Below are positions 12,133 to 17,966 of a stretch of DNA of 64,000 nt, piece by piece. The DNA is from Clostridium sp. AM58-1XD (GTDB lineage Bacteria; Bacillota; Clostridia; Lachnospirales; Lachnospiraceae), in NCBI RefSeq assembly GCF_003464085.1, contig NZ_QSDR01000016.1, forward strand, positions 44,727 to 108,726, written 5' to 3'. Positions within the stretch are counted from its first letter, which is position 1. Each line of letters opens with the position of its first letter. The notes under the pieces were generated by a model. The model did no database searches, had not been told where the DNA came from, and worked only from the letters and a program-made list of their open reading frames with translations. The position numbers were made by a program, and so were the translations under genes.

Positions 12133-12207
12133 TCCTGTTCTTTTTTACTTTTTCTGGAATTCTTTTCCTTCCCGGAGTATAATCATATTCTGTCAGGAGG
12201 ATTGATC

Positions 12208-12975
12208 ATGGAAAATTTCTTTCAATTCACAGCATGGCCGATGGTGCCGCCGCTTCCCTATTCTGCTTTTCACATGATTTTGAGCCTTTCAGGAATTATT
12301 CTGGCCATATGTTCTGCCCGTCTGCTTGCCGGATGTGCCGGAGCCGGAAAACATCCAGGCCGCGTGCTATTTATATCCGGCCTGTTCCTCTCAATTTGTG
12401 AACTGTACAAACAGGGATTTTTGTATACAATTGTCAACTCCGGCAGCTATGACTGGTGGTATTTCCCCTTCCAGCTCTGCAGCATACCGATGTATCTCTG
12501 CCTCCTTTATCCTTTTGTATCATCTGGCTCCCGTTATTCGATGATGAGTCAAAAAGTCTGCGCAACTTTTATACAGGATTTTGGACTTCTTGGCGGTTTT
12601 ATGGCTCTGGCCGACCCATCCGGCCTTATGCACCCATACTGGACTCTGACTATGCACGGCTTCCTGTGGCATTTTATTCTTATTTTTATTGGCTTCTACT
12701 GTTGCTTCAGCAAGATCAGCGACCTTTCCTCAGGAAGCTTTTCCCGTGTGCTTCCTCTCTTTTTTCTGTGCTGTATCATCGCTACCGTGATCAATGTAGC
12801 TGCAGGACCTGACGGCAATGCCGATATGTTTTATATTACGCCCTATTATCCTTCGCTTCAGAGAGTATTTCATACAATTGCTCTATTCGCAGGAATTATT
12901 CCTGGAAATATCGTTTATCTGTTCTGCGTATGCCTTGGGGCCGGCCTGATCCACGAGGCTGCAGGCGTCTCATAA
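12208..12975 (+). CDS. YwaF/TMEM164-family integral membrane protein
   Basis: About 255 aa with seven predicted hydrophobic spans, matching the TIGR02206/YwaF family. The signature WYFPFQLCSIPMYLCLLYPF lies near residues 85-105, and HGFLWHFILI and the FYITPYYPSLQRVFHT segment follow. The start is ATG at 12208 seven bases after AGGAGG; a TTG two codons earlier is less likely. Function is not established in bacteria (eukaryotic TMEM164 homologues are acyltransferase-like). It stands alone ahead of tRNA-Val. Confidence 0.75.
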   Translation: MENFFQFTAWPMVPPLPYSAFHMILSLSGIILAICSARLLAGCAGAGKHPGRVLFISGLFLSICELYKQGFLYTIVNSGSYDWWYFPFQLCSIPMYLCLLYPFVSSGSRYSMMSQKVCATFIQDFGLLGGFMALADPSGLMHPYWTLTMHGFLWHFILIFIGFYCCFSKISDLSSGSFSRVLPLFFLCCIIATVINVAAGPDGNADMFYITPYYPSLQRVFHTIALFAGIIPGNIVYLFCVCLGAGLIHEAAGVS

Positions 12976-13042: not shown

Positions 13043-13050
13043 AATCTTAT

Positions 13051-13123
13051 GGAGACATAGCTCAGCTGGGAGAGCATCTGCTTGACGTGTAGAGGGTCGC
13101 AGGTTCGAGTCCTGTTGTCTCCA
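13051..13123 (+). tRNA. tRNA-Val (anticodon GAC)
   Basis: Folds as a canonical cloverleaf: acceptor GGAGACA/TGTCTCC, D arm GCTCAGCTGGGAGAGC, anticodon stem TCTGC/GTAGA with loop TTGACGT, and T arm GCAGG TTCGAGT CCTGT. The discriminator is A and CCA is not encoded. A T run follows directly. Confidence 0.95.
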
Positions 13124-13184
13124 TTTTTTTATACTATCCAGCCACTATGTATGGAAAAAAGTCAAAAGAAGAGAGGTAATGGGC

Positions 13185-14195: not shown

Positions 14196-17100
14196 TCATT
14201 GAATCCATGACCCGTCCTCCCCTGTCATATAGCCGTCCGGCGTCCGTTCCCCCGCATACATTTTTCCTTTCTCACCATCGGAAACGGTATGAAAATAATA
14301 CCACTTTCCATCGATCTGCCTCCAGCCGGAAGCCATGGCGCCGCCTTCATCTAAGTAAAACCATTTCTGATAGGATGGATCATAGAGCCAGCCCGTTTCC
14401 ATTTTTCCATATGTTCCTGTATCCTGGCTCAGATAATACCAGACTTCTCCCTGGTTAAACCAGCCGGATTCCACAAAGGTATCTTCTTTGAAATAATACC
14501 ATACCCCGCCTATTTTCTCCCAGGAAGACCGGGCATATGTTCCGTCATTTTTCATAAAGCGCCATCCGCTGTCTCTCTGTTCCCAAGAACCGTGAACCGT
14601 GTCTTCTCTCATCATCTGGTTCGTAACTTTCCCGGACTCTCTGTCGTCATCTCCTGAGCCAGTTCTTCCTCTTACCGTTATCCGGCAGACCGCCTGTCCG
14701 TCTCCTGCTTTCGCCGTTACATCAGCCTTACCTGGTTTTAATGCGAGTACCCGACCGCTTTTATCAACTGAAACGATGTCCGGCCTGTCTGAAGAATACA
14801 TGATGGTCAGTTCTTCCTCTGCCTCCACCGTCGCTTCCAGTCTCTGCATCTCTCCCACATTCATGGTCAGACTTTCCGGTCTGATCTGTACCTTTGCCGG
14901 GACAGACTCGGTAATTTCGATCCGGCAGGAAGCCTTCAGACCAACATCGGCCATGCTGACTGCCGTTACCGTCACTTCTCCGGGTGCTTTTGCCGCAAGT
15001 ACAGTAAATTCTTCTCCGCTTTCAGAAAGCTTCCTTTCCTCCTCCACACTGCCGATATCTCCTGTAATCTCCCAATAAATCTGCGGGCTCCCCGGGTTAA
15101 AATAATCGCTGTCCGAATACAGTGCGGCAGAAAGATTTAGTGGTATCTTCTGTCCTTTTTTGAGTTTTAAGGAAATCGTCCCGCCAGTAATCACATCTTC
15201 CTGCGAAATGAGATTTACTCCCCTTGGATAATTAATCAGCTGATTGCCATACCGTAAATAACTGGCTTCCAGCGCGCCTGCCGCCGCAAATGCCCAACAC
15301 AGATAACTATTTCCCTGATGCTTCGCCTTTGTGATCAGGTTGTAATCCCTGGAATTATATTTCTCGGGGAAGTTCAGGTTGAGGGAAGCCGTATCAATCT
15401 CATCGGCATTTTCAAAACTCACGATACCCTCGTCCTCAGTTCGTATTCTCAACATGTTCAAAGAAGCTTTCATCTCTGCTTCTTCTTTTTCGGCCAGCCT
15501 CGTTTCTTCCCTGTCATCCTCCAGAATCATTTCATCCGAACCAATCTTATCCCCCGCCTCAGAGGCAGTGCCTTTGCGATTGGACCATCGTCACTTTCAT
15601 ATTCTGCTTCTGAATCCGTACTCGTTTTCATTTTCTCCGGTTCCGGTCGCTGATGTTCCATTTTTATTCCGGTTTCCGACGGTGTAGCCTTTGTCTCATT
15701 AACTGCACTGCTGTTTCCGGTACCGGAAGCAGCCCCTGCTTCCGACGGTGTAGACGTATTAGCTTTTTCAACATACTCTGATTTTGTAGCTGTGTCCGGC
15801 TGCGCCTCCGGATGAGGTACGGTAGAAGTGTCATATCCTTCCGCCTTTTCTTTATTATCCAATATCGTAATCTCACTTTTTAGCGGAGAATATGTATAGG
15901 CATAAATGCAGGGGTATTCTCCCACAGCCGACGCATCCCATCCTTGCTCCTCTTCGTCCCAGCTGTCATAATAAAACGATTTTCCAGGAATTGCTTTCGT
16001 TCCATTAATCCACCCCTCCCGGTCGTGGCATGAATAAAAGATTAAATCTCTGCTATCATCGGAAGAGATGGCTACATGAACTTCAAAATCAGTGTCCGCC
16101 GGAATCATAATTCCGTCCTCCAGCCTCATCGTATAAAATCCCGGATATTTCAGATAACCTGACTTGATCTTCTGAACCGCCCCGTCTCCTATACGAACTC
16201 CAATCTCATAAGATACATCATTGTGCGGTTCAGCAAAGCCTACCGCCCTTAGGACTTCACCCGTTCCTTCGTTACGAAAAACCTGAACTCCTCTCAGAAA
16301 ACCGCTGTTTTGATATGCTCCATTGTCAATTCCTCCTGCCGAATTGCTGTACAGATGGTTATAATTATCCCTGCTCTCGCTTGGTGCGAACGCTGACGGC
16401 ACCTTATCCGCACCGCCAAAATCAGCCGATTCATAGGAAACGTAATAGTATTCCGGGTACATTTCAGCGTCGGCTCCCTCACCTTCAGCTCCATAGGAGT
16501 CACGGCAAATCCATGCGCCGTCGTGTTCCGGCATGGTTTCATCAATCAGACTGATGACCGGTTCATCCATTCCGGAATCGATATCCCAGTCCCGCTTTGT
16601 AACACGGAAGTTTTCCCTCTTTACCGTGTCGTCCCAGCCTACAATCAGCACTGCATGGCCGCCCATTTTATCATATTCCCAGTCCTCCGGCGCATAGAAG
16701 TATCTGTAATCCCATTGTGGATATCCATCGCCTGGATTCTTATCTCTATAATTATAGCTGGTGGTCATCCCTGTATCAATGGCGCCATATGTCATAATCG
16801 CATTCTTCCAGTGCTCCATATAGCTGCCTGTACTGTTATGGCTCGGCACCATAATTACATTCTGTTCATGAAATTCCGGCTCCGCCTTTTTGTAATGAAT
16901 ATATTCACTGGGCGTTTCCTTAAAATCACCTTTCTGATAATAAGGCATGACTGATTCATTCACTGGTCCCTGCCAGTGGGCAAGATAGTGAATGATATGA
17001 ACGGGGGAACCACCTTTATTCTTCTCCTCTGCATTTTGGACATTGTAAAACCGGAACGGTGATTCCGGATCAAATATGGCCCCTGCAATATGCGCCTCTG

Positions 17101-17653
17101 AATAATCCGGCGCCTTTTTTCTGTCAGCCTGTCTGGATATCCTCAAGGTGTAAGAAGACGCTTCGATCCCTTCCTGAGGGACAATGCGCAGCGTGTAGGT
17201 TCCCGCTTCCAGGCCAGCCGGTTCCAGTAACTGGCTGTCTGGCCTTCTGGAGGCTCCAATTACACTGCCCTTTGAGATCAGTTCCAGACCGCAGGGATAC
17301 TCCGACTGCAGCAGTACCGTTAAATCCGTCTCTTCCTCCAGGTGGAAGGAATAACTGTCCACATCATCCGGCGAAGAGATTGCGGCCTCAATCTGGCTTG
17401 GAAATGATAGGATAACTTCCCCATCGCCCTCCAGTTCTTCCCATCGATCCCTCGTATCAGACTTAACTTCTGGAATATCTCCGTCTATATCCCCTTCCAT
17501 TTTTTCTGCAAAGCTGGGATAAGCATAAGCCGGAATCGGCTCAAATACCAAAATTCCGTTCAGACTCAGCATAACCGTTACGAGAATTCCCGCCGTATAC
17601 GCTCTGCACTTTTTCCTGATCATTCCTGATCGGTCTCTCAATCTCTCTTTCAT
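14196..17653 (-). CDS. Large secreted papain-like (C1) protease with permuted halves and cell-wall repeats, frameshifted
   Basis: Two frames, 17653-15527 and 15530-14196, overlap only as ATGA. Restoring one A in the run at 15573-15575 fuses them as IAKGTASEAGDK and gives 1152 aa. Order: signal peptide (residues about 18-43); PPC-like beta domain (75-175); the His half of a C1 peptidase with GGHAVLIVGW (His about 333) and WICRDSYG, where Asp about 385 stands at the usual Asn; a lectin-like beta domain (about 430-620); a Thr/Ser/Pro/Glu linker (TPSE repeats); then KYNSRDYNLITKAKHQG and LCWAFAAAGALEAS (Cys about 786), the half that is normally N-terminal; a Big2-like Ig domain; and cell-wall-binding repeats (GWFNQGEVWYYLSQD type). 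The catalytic parts are thus inverted in order. The ATGA overlap leaves a split two-protein version possible. Confidence 0.8.
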
Positions 17654-17850: not shown

Positions 17851-17863
17851 ACTTATCTGTTAA

Positions 17864-17936
17864 AGCTGCTGACGGGAATCGGACCCGTGACCTCCGCACT
17901 ACCAATGCGACGCTCTACCGACTGAGCCACAGCAGC
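17864..17936 (-). tRNA. tRNA-Thr (anticodon GGT)
   Basis: Minus-strand cloverleaf: acceptor GCTGCTG/CAGCAGC, D arm GCTCAGTCGGTAGAGC, anticodon stem TCGCA/TGCGG with loop TTGGTAG, T arm ACGGG TCCGATT CCCGT. Discriminator T, CCA not encoded. The rest of the 17654-18123 gap holds its promoter and terminator and no protein gene. Confidence 0.95.
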
Positions 17937-17966
17937 TTGTTTGCTTGTGTTCCACAAACCTTGGAT

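Follow-up and report, generated by a model that had tools for sequence, protein, structure and literature searches.

A probable circularly permuted papain–lectin-like peptidase family in Clostridia, approached from a split gene of Clostridium sp. AM58-1XD

Can the two halves of a papain-type peptidase stand in reversed order in a natural, inherited gene? The question is raised by a 64,000-nucleotide stretch of Clostridium sp. AM58-1XD (contig NZ_QSDR01000016.1, positions 44,727 to 108,726; hereafter the window), in which two overlapping open reading frames (ORFs), ORF1 and ORF2, carry the His half and then the Cys segment of a C1A (papain) peptidase (Table 1). C1A is a textbook enzyme family. 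The original prediction, whose placement of both ORFs and their ATGA overlap agrees with the sequence, proposed a circularly permuted or two-part papain fold. Our analysis indicates that the window gene in all probability belongs to a family of C1A peptidases in Clostridia that have a lectin-like domain, are circularly permuted, and are natural and inherited.

Papain halves in swapped order in the window and its relatives

In Pfam searches, ORF1 covered positions 66-196 of the PF00112 profile (12.7 bits, against a family cut-off of 20.7) and residues 55-99 of ORF2 covered positions 2-48 (21.2 bits, just above the cut-off), so that the two pieces complement each other with the profile order reversed. 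The relatives P0002 (28.9 bits), P0032 (53.0), L154 (51.2) and L152 (62.2) all exceeded the gathering score. The lectin-like domain PF18560 lies directly behind the His/Asn part, with E values of 3.4e-9 in ORF1 and 4.9e-10 in P0002. The motifs GGHAVLIVGW (His333) and RDSYG (Asp385) both fall within ORF1, which also has DYSEAH, presumably the counterpart of papain's SEQ motif, and ORF2 contains KHQGNSYLCWAF (Gln72, Cys78). A scan of all stop-to-stop frames of at least 40 residues in the window with in-house hidden Markov models (HMMs) returned a single Cys segment, at 69.2 bits, and a single His half, at 117.3 bits, with runner-up matches of just 3.6 and 2.8 bits; within these frames neither a Cys segment upstream of the His half nor a hidden normal-order papain domain was found by the two HMMs. 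A second, concealed Cys or His motif, which the original prediction had considered fatal to its reading, was therefore not seen above 4 bits. Pfam, motif positions and the HMM scan agree with its description of a His motif and lectin-like domain first and a Cys segment later, and the C-terminal repeats it noted are choline-binding repeats according to Pfam.

The same order recurs in homologues. A protein search with ORF1 returned 36 proteins, of which 31 carry the His half before the Cys segment in one chain by HMM order scan, two are conventional (P0034, P0035) and three have the His half only (ORF1 itself, P0031 and P0036); identity to ORF1 across the permuted proteins runs from 72% (P0002) down to 28% (P0033). 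A scan of genome contigs using ORF1 alone as query found no relatives. With the alignment as query, the scan confirmed 449 places, of which the best 80 were kept. Among all fetched loci, the order scan identified 14 more His-then-Cys ORFs (some of them duplicates) and 104 conventional ones, besides a tandem Cys-His-Cys-His ORF (L042) and an ORF with the His half only (L017). The order scans, trees, approximately unbiased (AU) test, residue counts, propeptide-motif counts and companion-domain counts reported here do not include locus L078 (C. difficile). The linear order Cys-His-Asn is absent from the permuted ORFs, all 45 of which read His, then Asp/Asn, then Cys; in the window this order is spread over two ORFs.

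Permuted genes are also present in sampled genomes. Clostridium sp. chh4-2 (G001) has three permuted paralogs and one conventional gene, and the permuted order stands in its named record NZ_PKUU01000015.1. At the level of the family of G001, 137 of 397 genomes had some match, with the permuted order in at least six (G001, G049, G231, G204, G220, G120) among the 30 loci listed. The class-level sample (391 genomes) gave four matches at 1e-15, all with permuted genes (G001, G857, G927, G1156), and in the phylum-level sample (398 genomes) the L073 domain was matched in nine at 1e-35, the match in G204 being the only permuted one by order scan. Among the His-only proteins, P0031 (482 aa) has a PPC-like domain and the His half but stops within the lectin-like part. 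It resembles the first portion of a further permuted gene, at a contig edge or broken, and may thus be a second truncated or disrupted member of the permuted family. P0036 and L017 had no PPC-like match by HMM.

Catalytic residues, position of the cut and proposed fold

Each half is homologous to the corresponding part of C1A enzymes, and the swapped order is conserved together with the catalytic residues. In alignment A1, which comprises 28 relatives and the two window ORFs as separate rows (P0021, P0023, P0024, P0031, P0034, P0035 and P0036 were left out), no variation occurs in the Gln, Cys, Trp, His or SE motif across the 29 rows carrying the relevant half; these residues include the oxyanion Gln, the Cys in a CW[AST]F helix and the His ahead of a GW motif. 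At the third-residue position, 25 of 29 rows have Asp and the other four Asn, and over the 45 permuted ORFs, duplicates included, 33 have Asp and 12 Asn. The Asp that the original prediction noted in place of Asn is present in the window (RDSYG), but the family as a whole varies at this position.

The Cys segment of L154 (residues 880-925) aligns with papain residues 1-47, and residues 55-99 of ORF2 align with residues 2-46 of a cathepsin S chain, which means that a stretch of approximately 46 residues has moved away from the start of the mature enzyme. Residues 478-806 of L154 align with the later part of the construct of Cwp84, a C1A peptidase of Clostridioides difficile, and the structure match of the His half to Cwp84 begins just past the Cys helix of that enzyme. 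Judged from these alignments, the chain was cut in the loop that joins the Cys helix to the SEQ motif. The VIA-align and Foldseek matches to Cwp84 are sequential, and could therefore not place the Cys segment. In a single-chain AlphaFold2 (AF2) model of P0002 the Cys segment was confidently predicted, and the linker at residues 577-637, the counterpart of the TPSE-rich linker of ORF1, had a predicted local distance difference test (pLDDT) score below 50. A contrast in pLDDT between two models was counted in favor of Cys-segment docking, and prediction supports an arrangement in which the far Cys segment would fold back to meet the His half within one chain. Circular permutation, as originally proposed, is supported by the order in 31 of 36 protein matches, the complementary Pfam coverage, the retained catalytic residues, the Cwp84 structure match and this contrast in model confidence.

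The ancestral order would have been propeptide, Cys segment, His half, lectin-like domain and wall anchor, as in Cwp84. In the permuted family the moved residues, with the oxyanion Gln, the catalytic Cys and the Cys helix, now stand behind the lectin-like domain, giving a usual order of signal sequence, PPC-like domain, His half, lectin-like domain, flexible linker, Cys segment, Ig-like domain and wall or membrane anchor. The linker occupies the former place of the propeptide, just before the mature start, and may for that reason take over its role; its cleavage could, speculatively, yield a two-chain enzyme. The product would be an active secreted surface protease that is held to the wall by its choline-binding repeats and cleaves proteins on or near the surface, much as Cwp84 cuts its S-layer precursor. 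A more tentative proposal, which we consider rather doubtful in its entirety, is that this is the first natural permutant in the papain family proper and that cutting of the internal linker leaves a wall-tethered Cys chain and a non-covalently held His-lectin chain, with activity that depends on assembly at the surface.

Number of permutation events and alternative explanations

Two companion domains accompany the permuted order. Among ORFs with both halves, HMMs found a PPC-like domain before the His half in 43 of 44 permuted ORFs and an Ig-like domain right behind the Cys segment in 42 of 44, versus 0 of 133 other ORFs in either case. Eight duplicate loci had been removed from this count and some near-copies remain; 28 of the 44 rows had been used to build the two HMMs, and the other 16 gave a PPC-like match in 15 and an Ig-like match in 14. 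The exceptions are L153, without an Ig-like match although its sister L154 has one, and L073 (5376-9533, plus strand), which has neither domain; there, leucine-rich repeats and BIG2 come before the His half, and the chain stops immediately behind the Cys helix. L073 may be an early branch or a second permutation event. In a 55-row tree with three lineages added, all 18 permuted rows fell on one side of a branch with support of 58, which is not strong, and 17 of them were grouped at support 98; this tree and the 68-row set of the AU test had been freed of long-branch rows and of a sample of the remaining ones. In the AU test, an arrangement of the main clade with L096 was not rejected (p 0.508).

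Tandem duplication is a usual route to circular permutation. One ORF of Candidatus Aveggerthella (L042, 7326-12074, plus strand) encodes two full C1A domains in tandem, and C1A-lectin genes thus do occur as tandem duplicates; both copies are, however, in conventional order, and the gene is not a proven intermediate. The propeptide motif NPx[FYW], looked for in the linker, was given no weight: it is present in the L073 linker, in no other permuted lineage and in 8 of 101 conventional propeptides.

Several observations weigh against an inherited permuted family as read here. The PF00112 match of ORF1 by itself falls below the cut-off, the Cys, His, PPC and Ig HMMs were partly trained on rows they later scored, and several of the 44 permuted rows are near copies (e.g., P0005 and L001). 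The L154 Cys segment matches that of Cwp84 weakly (12.5 bits), and the third residue says little because the Asn of Cwp84 is reported to lie outside the active site (PMC4089489). The five AF2 single-chain models of P0002 had a mean pLDDT of 70-76 and a best predicted template modelling score of 0.62, and the pLDDT contrast is indirect, comparing two related sequences whose alignments differ. The window copy is split where relatives run continuous. As to a single origin, the lack of both companions in L073 makes a second, independent permutation possible, a 131-row tree (29 permuted rows; rows above 85% identity thinned beforehand) required three label changes, and the AU test on 68 rows (21 permuted) neither showed nor rejected one origin (p 0.516).

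The Cys segment might instead act in trans, one molecule completing the His half of its neighbor in an enzyme that works only as a dimer or lattice. The 234-393 residues between the His-half and Cys-segment HMM matches, part of them a low-confidence linker in the P0002 model, would allow such a swap, and AF2 modelling took a single chain only; that single chain, however, already models with a confident Cys segment and no sequence feature demands a dimer, making the arrangement unlikely. It is also quite improbable that these proteins are degenerate, non-catalytic adhesins retaining the papain halves merely as a scaffold. Their many adhesion-type modules (lectin-like, BIG2, choline-binding repeats, PPC-like), the Asp in place of Asn in 25 of 29 rows and the split window copy would suit such a role, but identical Gln, Cys, Trp and His in 29 of 29 otherwise diverged rows would not be expected without catalysis.

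A genuine two-part protease, made as coupled proteins from the overlapping ORFs and assembled later, is suggested by the stop/start ATGA overlap, but several features render it very improbable. Both halves are in one protein in the 31 relatives of the same order, so that the two-ORF arrangement stands for the window and fails as a family trait. ORF2 starts inside the charged linker with no signal sequence by eye, and a separate product would therefore stay inside the cell while that of ORF1 was exported; the ten bases before its ATG (TTCGGATGAA) contain no strong ribosome-binding site by eye. The stretch upstream of that ATG, read by eye in the ORF2 frame, resembles the linker of relatives, as expected of a frameshift, whereas the last residues of ORF1 do not. 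A frameshift or assembly error between the halves is the simplest reading of the split copy from sequence, and the copy as written would probably make no active enzyme; intact copies of the permuted gene are present in relatives. The frameshift alone may itself be an artefact. That the swapped order as a whole stems from misassembly or a local inversion is hardly credible: a single contig and one member sequence are all that represent window ORF1, but both protease halves are on the same strand and the order recurs in NZ_PKUU01000015.1 and several sampled genomes.

Relation to known peptidases and features of the window locus

The permuted family most resembles Cwp84 (PDB 4ci7, 4d59) in combining a C1A peptidase with a lectin-like domain. 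The order in Cwp84, according to PMC4089489, is propeptide, Cys116, His262, lectin-like domain and wall-binding domains. In the permuted family, by contrast, the lectin-like domain comes ahead of the Cys segment and the His half is preceded by a PPC-like domain. Its anchor consists of choline-binding repeats or, by eye, of a hydrophobic C-terminal membrane helix (L096, L152, L153, L154) in place of wall-binding domains, and L152-L154 suggest that one type of anchor was replaced by another within the family. Papain and the cathepsins share the alignable Cys segment, oxyanion Gln, Cys-Trp and His, but not the swapped order or the Asp that usually replaces Asn in the clade of the window. Permuted papain-like folds are described in PMC3142127 (LRAT-like and YaeF/YiiX-like members of NlpC/P60) and PMC10318531 (PPPDE and LupA). 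These likewise have the Cys helix moved C-terminal of a papain-like core; they are, however, separate families, whereas the window family has a whole lectin-like domain between the halves and further domains after the Cys segment. No NlpC/P60-type family was found by Pfam in either window ORF at E values up to 1.

According to PMC10318531, canonical structures of cluster I, to which C1 belongs, keep every core element, and permuted helices occur in other clusters. No report of a permuted C1A enzyme was found in the literature searched, which covered few subscription papers; the word "permut" is absent from PMC10380794, on papain family origin, and PMC12667903, on detection of circular permutants, has papain in its reference list only. 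Permutation being known in other papain-like families, the novelty suggested here would be the permuted order within C1A. A conserved permuted clade would demonstrate that hundreds of residues can come between the Cys helix and the rest of this fold, in a changed order, with the catalytic residues kept; it would constitute a natural experiment on what the propeptide does, on folding and on regulation. Such proteins, where named at source, are called hypothetical, Ig-like or lectin like domain-containing, and order-dependent annotation may thus overlook proteases.

Table 1. Features of the permuted protease locus in window coordinates. The PPC-like and Ig-like HMMs were built from alignment A1, which already includes the window ORFs they scored.
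Feature	Position	Strand	Details and basis
ORF1	15527-17653	-	708 aa; signal sequence, PPC-like domain, papain His half, lectin-like domain, TPSE-rich linker
Putative N-terminal signal sequence, ORF1	17522-17653	-	approximately residues 1-44; by eye
PPC-like beta domain, ORF1	17126-17443	-	residues 71-176; HMM from A1, 149.7 bits
Papain-fold His half	16397-17122	-	from DYSEAH to past the Asn/Asp motif; Pfam, A1, structure match, HMM
Catalytic His, GGHAV	16655-16657	-	ORF1 residue 333; 29/29 rows with His half
Third-residue position, Asp in RDSYG	16499-16501	-	ORF1 residue 385; Asp 25, Asn 4 of 29 rows
Lectin-like domain PF18560, ORF1	15965-16306	-	residues 450-563; Pfam, E 3.4e-9
TPSE-rich acidic linker, ORF1	15530-15856	-	sequence and A1
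ATGA overlap, ORF1 stop/ORF2 start	15527-15530		frame change just upstream; sequence
ORF2	14196-15530	-	444 aa; Cys segment, Ig-like domain, BIG2, choline-binding repeats
Permuted Cys segment, ORF2	15234-15368	-	residues 55-99; Pfam and cathepsin S alignment
Catalytic Cys, LCWAF	15297-15299	-	ORF2 residue 78 (oxyanion Gln, residue 72); 29/29 rows, invariant in alignment A2
Ig-like domain after Cys segment, ORF2	14901-15224	-	residues 103-210; HMM from A1, 166.7 bits
BIG2 domain PF02368, ORF2	14679-14894	-	residues 213-284; Pfam
Choline-binding/cell-wall-binding repeats PF01473, PF19127, ORF2	14202-14588	-	approximately residues 315-443; Pfam

For the PPC-like domain, PF04151 reached its cut-off in one of six relatives scanned with Pfam (L152), and PPC/collagen-binding-domain structures were among the structural matches of P0002. 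In a synteny comparison with the queries L001, L002 and L073, no neighbor gene of L001 matched the window, a single short match of L002 (29285-29497) lay distant from the protease gene, and the neighboring genes gave no hint of function. On either side of the protease gene lie genes for tRNA-Val(gac) and tRNA-Thr(ggt), at 13050-13124 (plus strand) and 17863-17937 (minus strand); together with the absence of shared neighbors with L001, these flanks could hint at an inserted block. Beyond the tRNA genes lie AIM24-family and M29 aminopeptidase genes, and at 12202-12975 (plus strand) the window encodes a membrane protein of 257 aa with a PF14808 (TMEM164 family) match.
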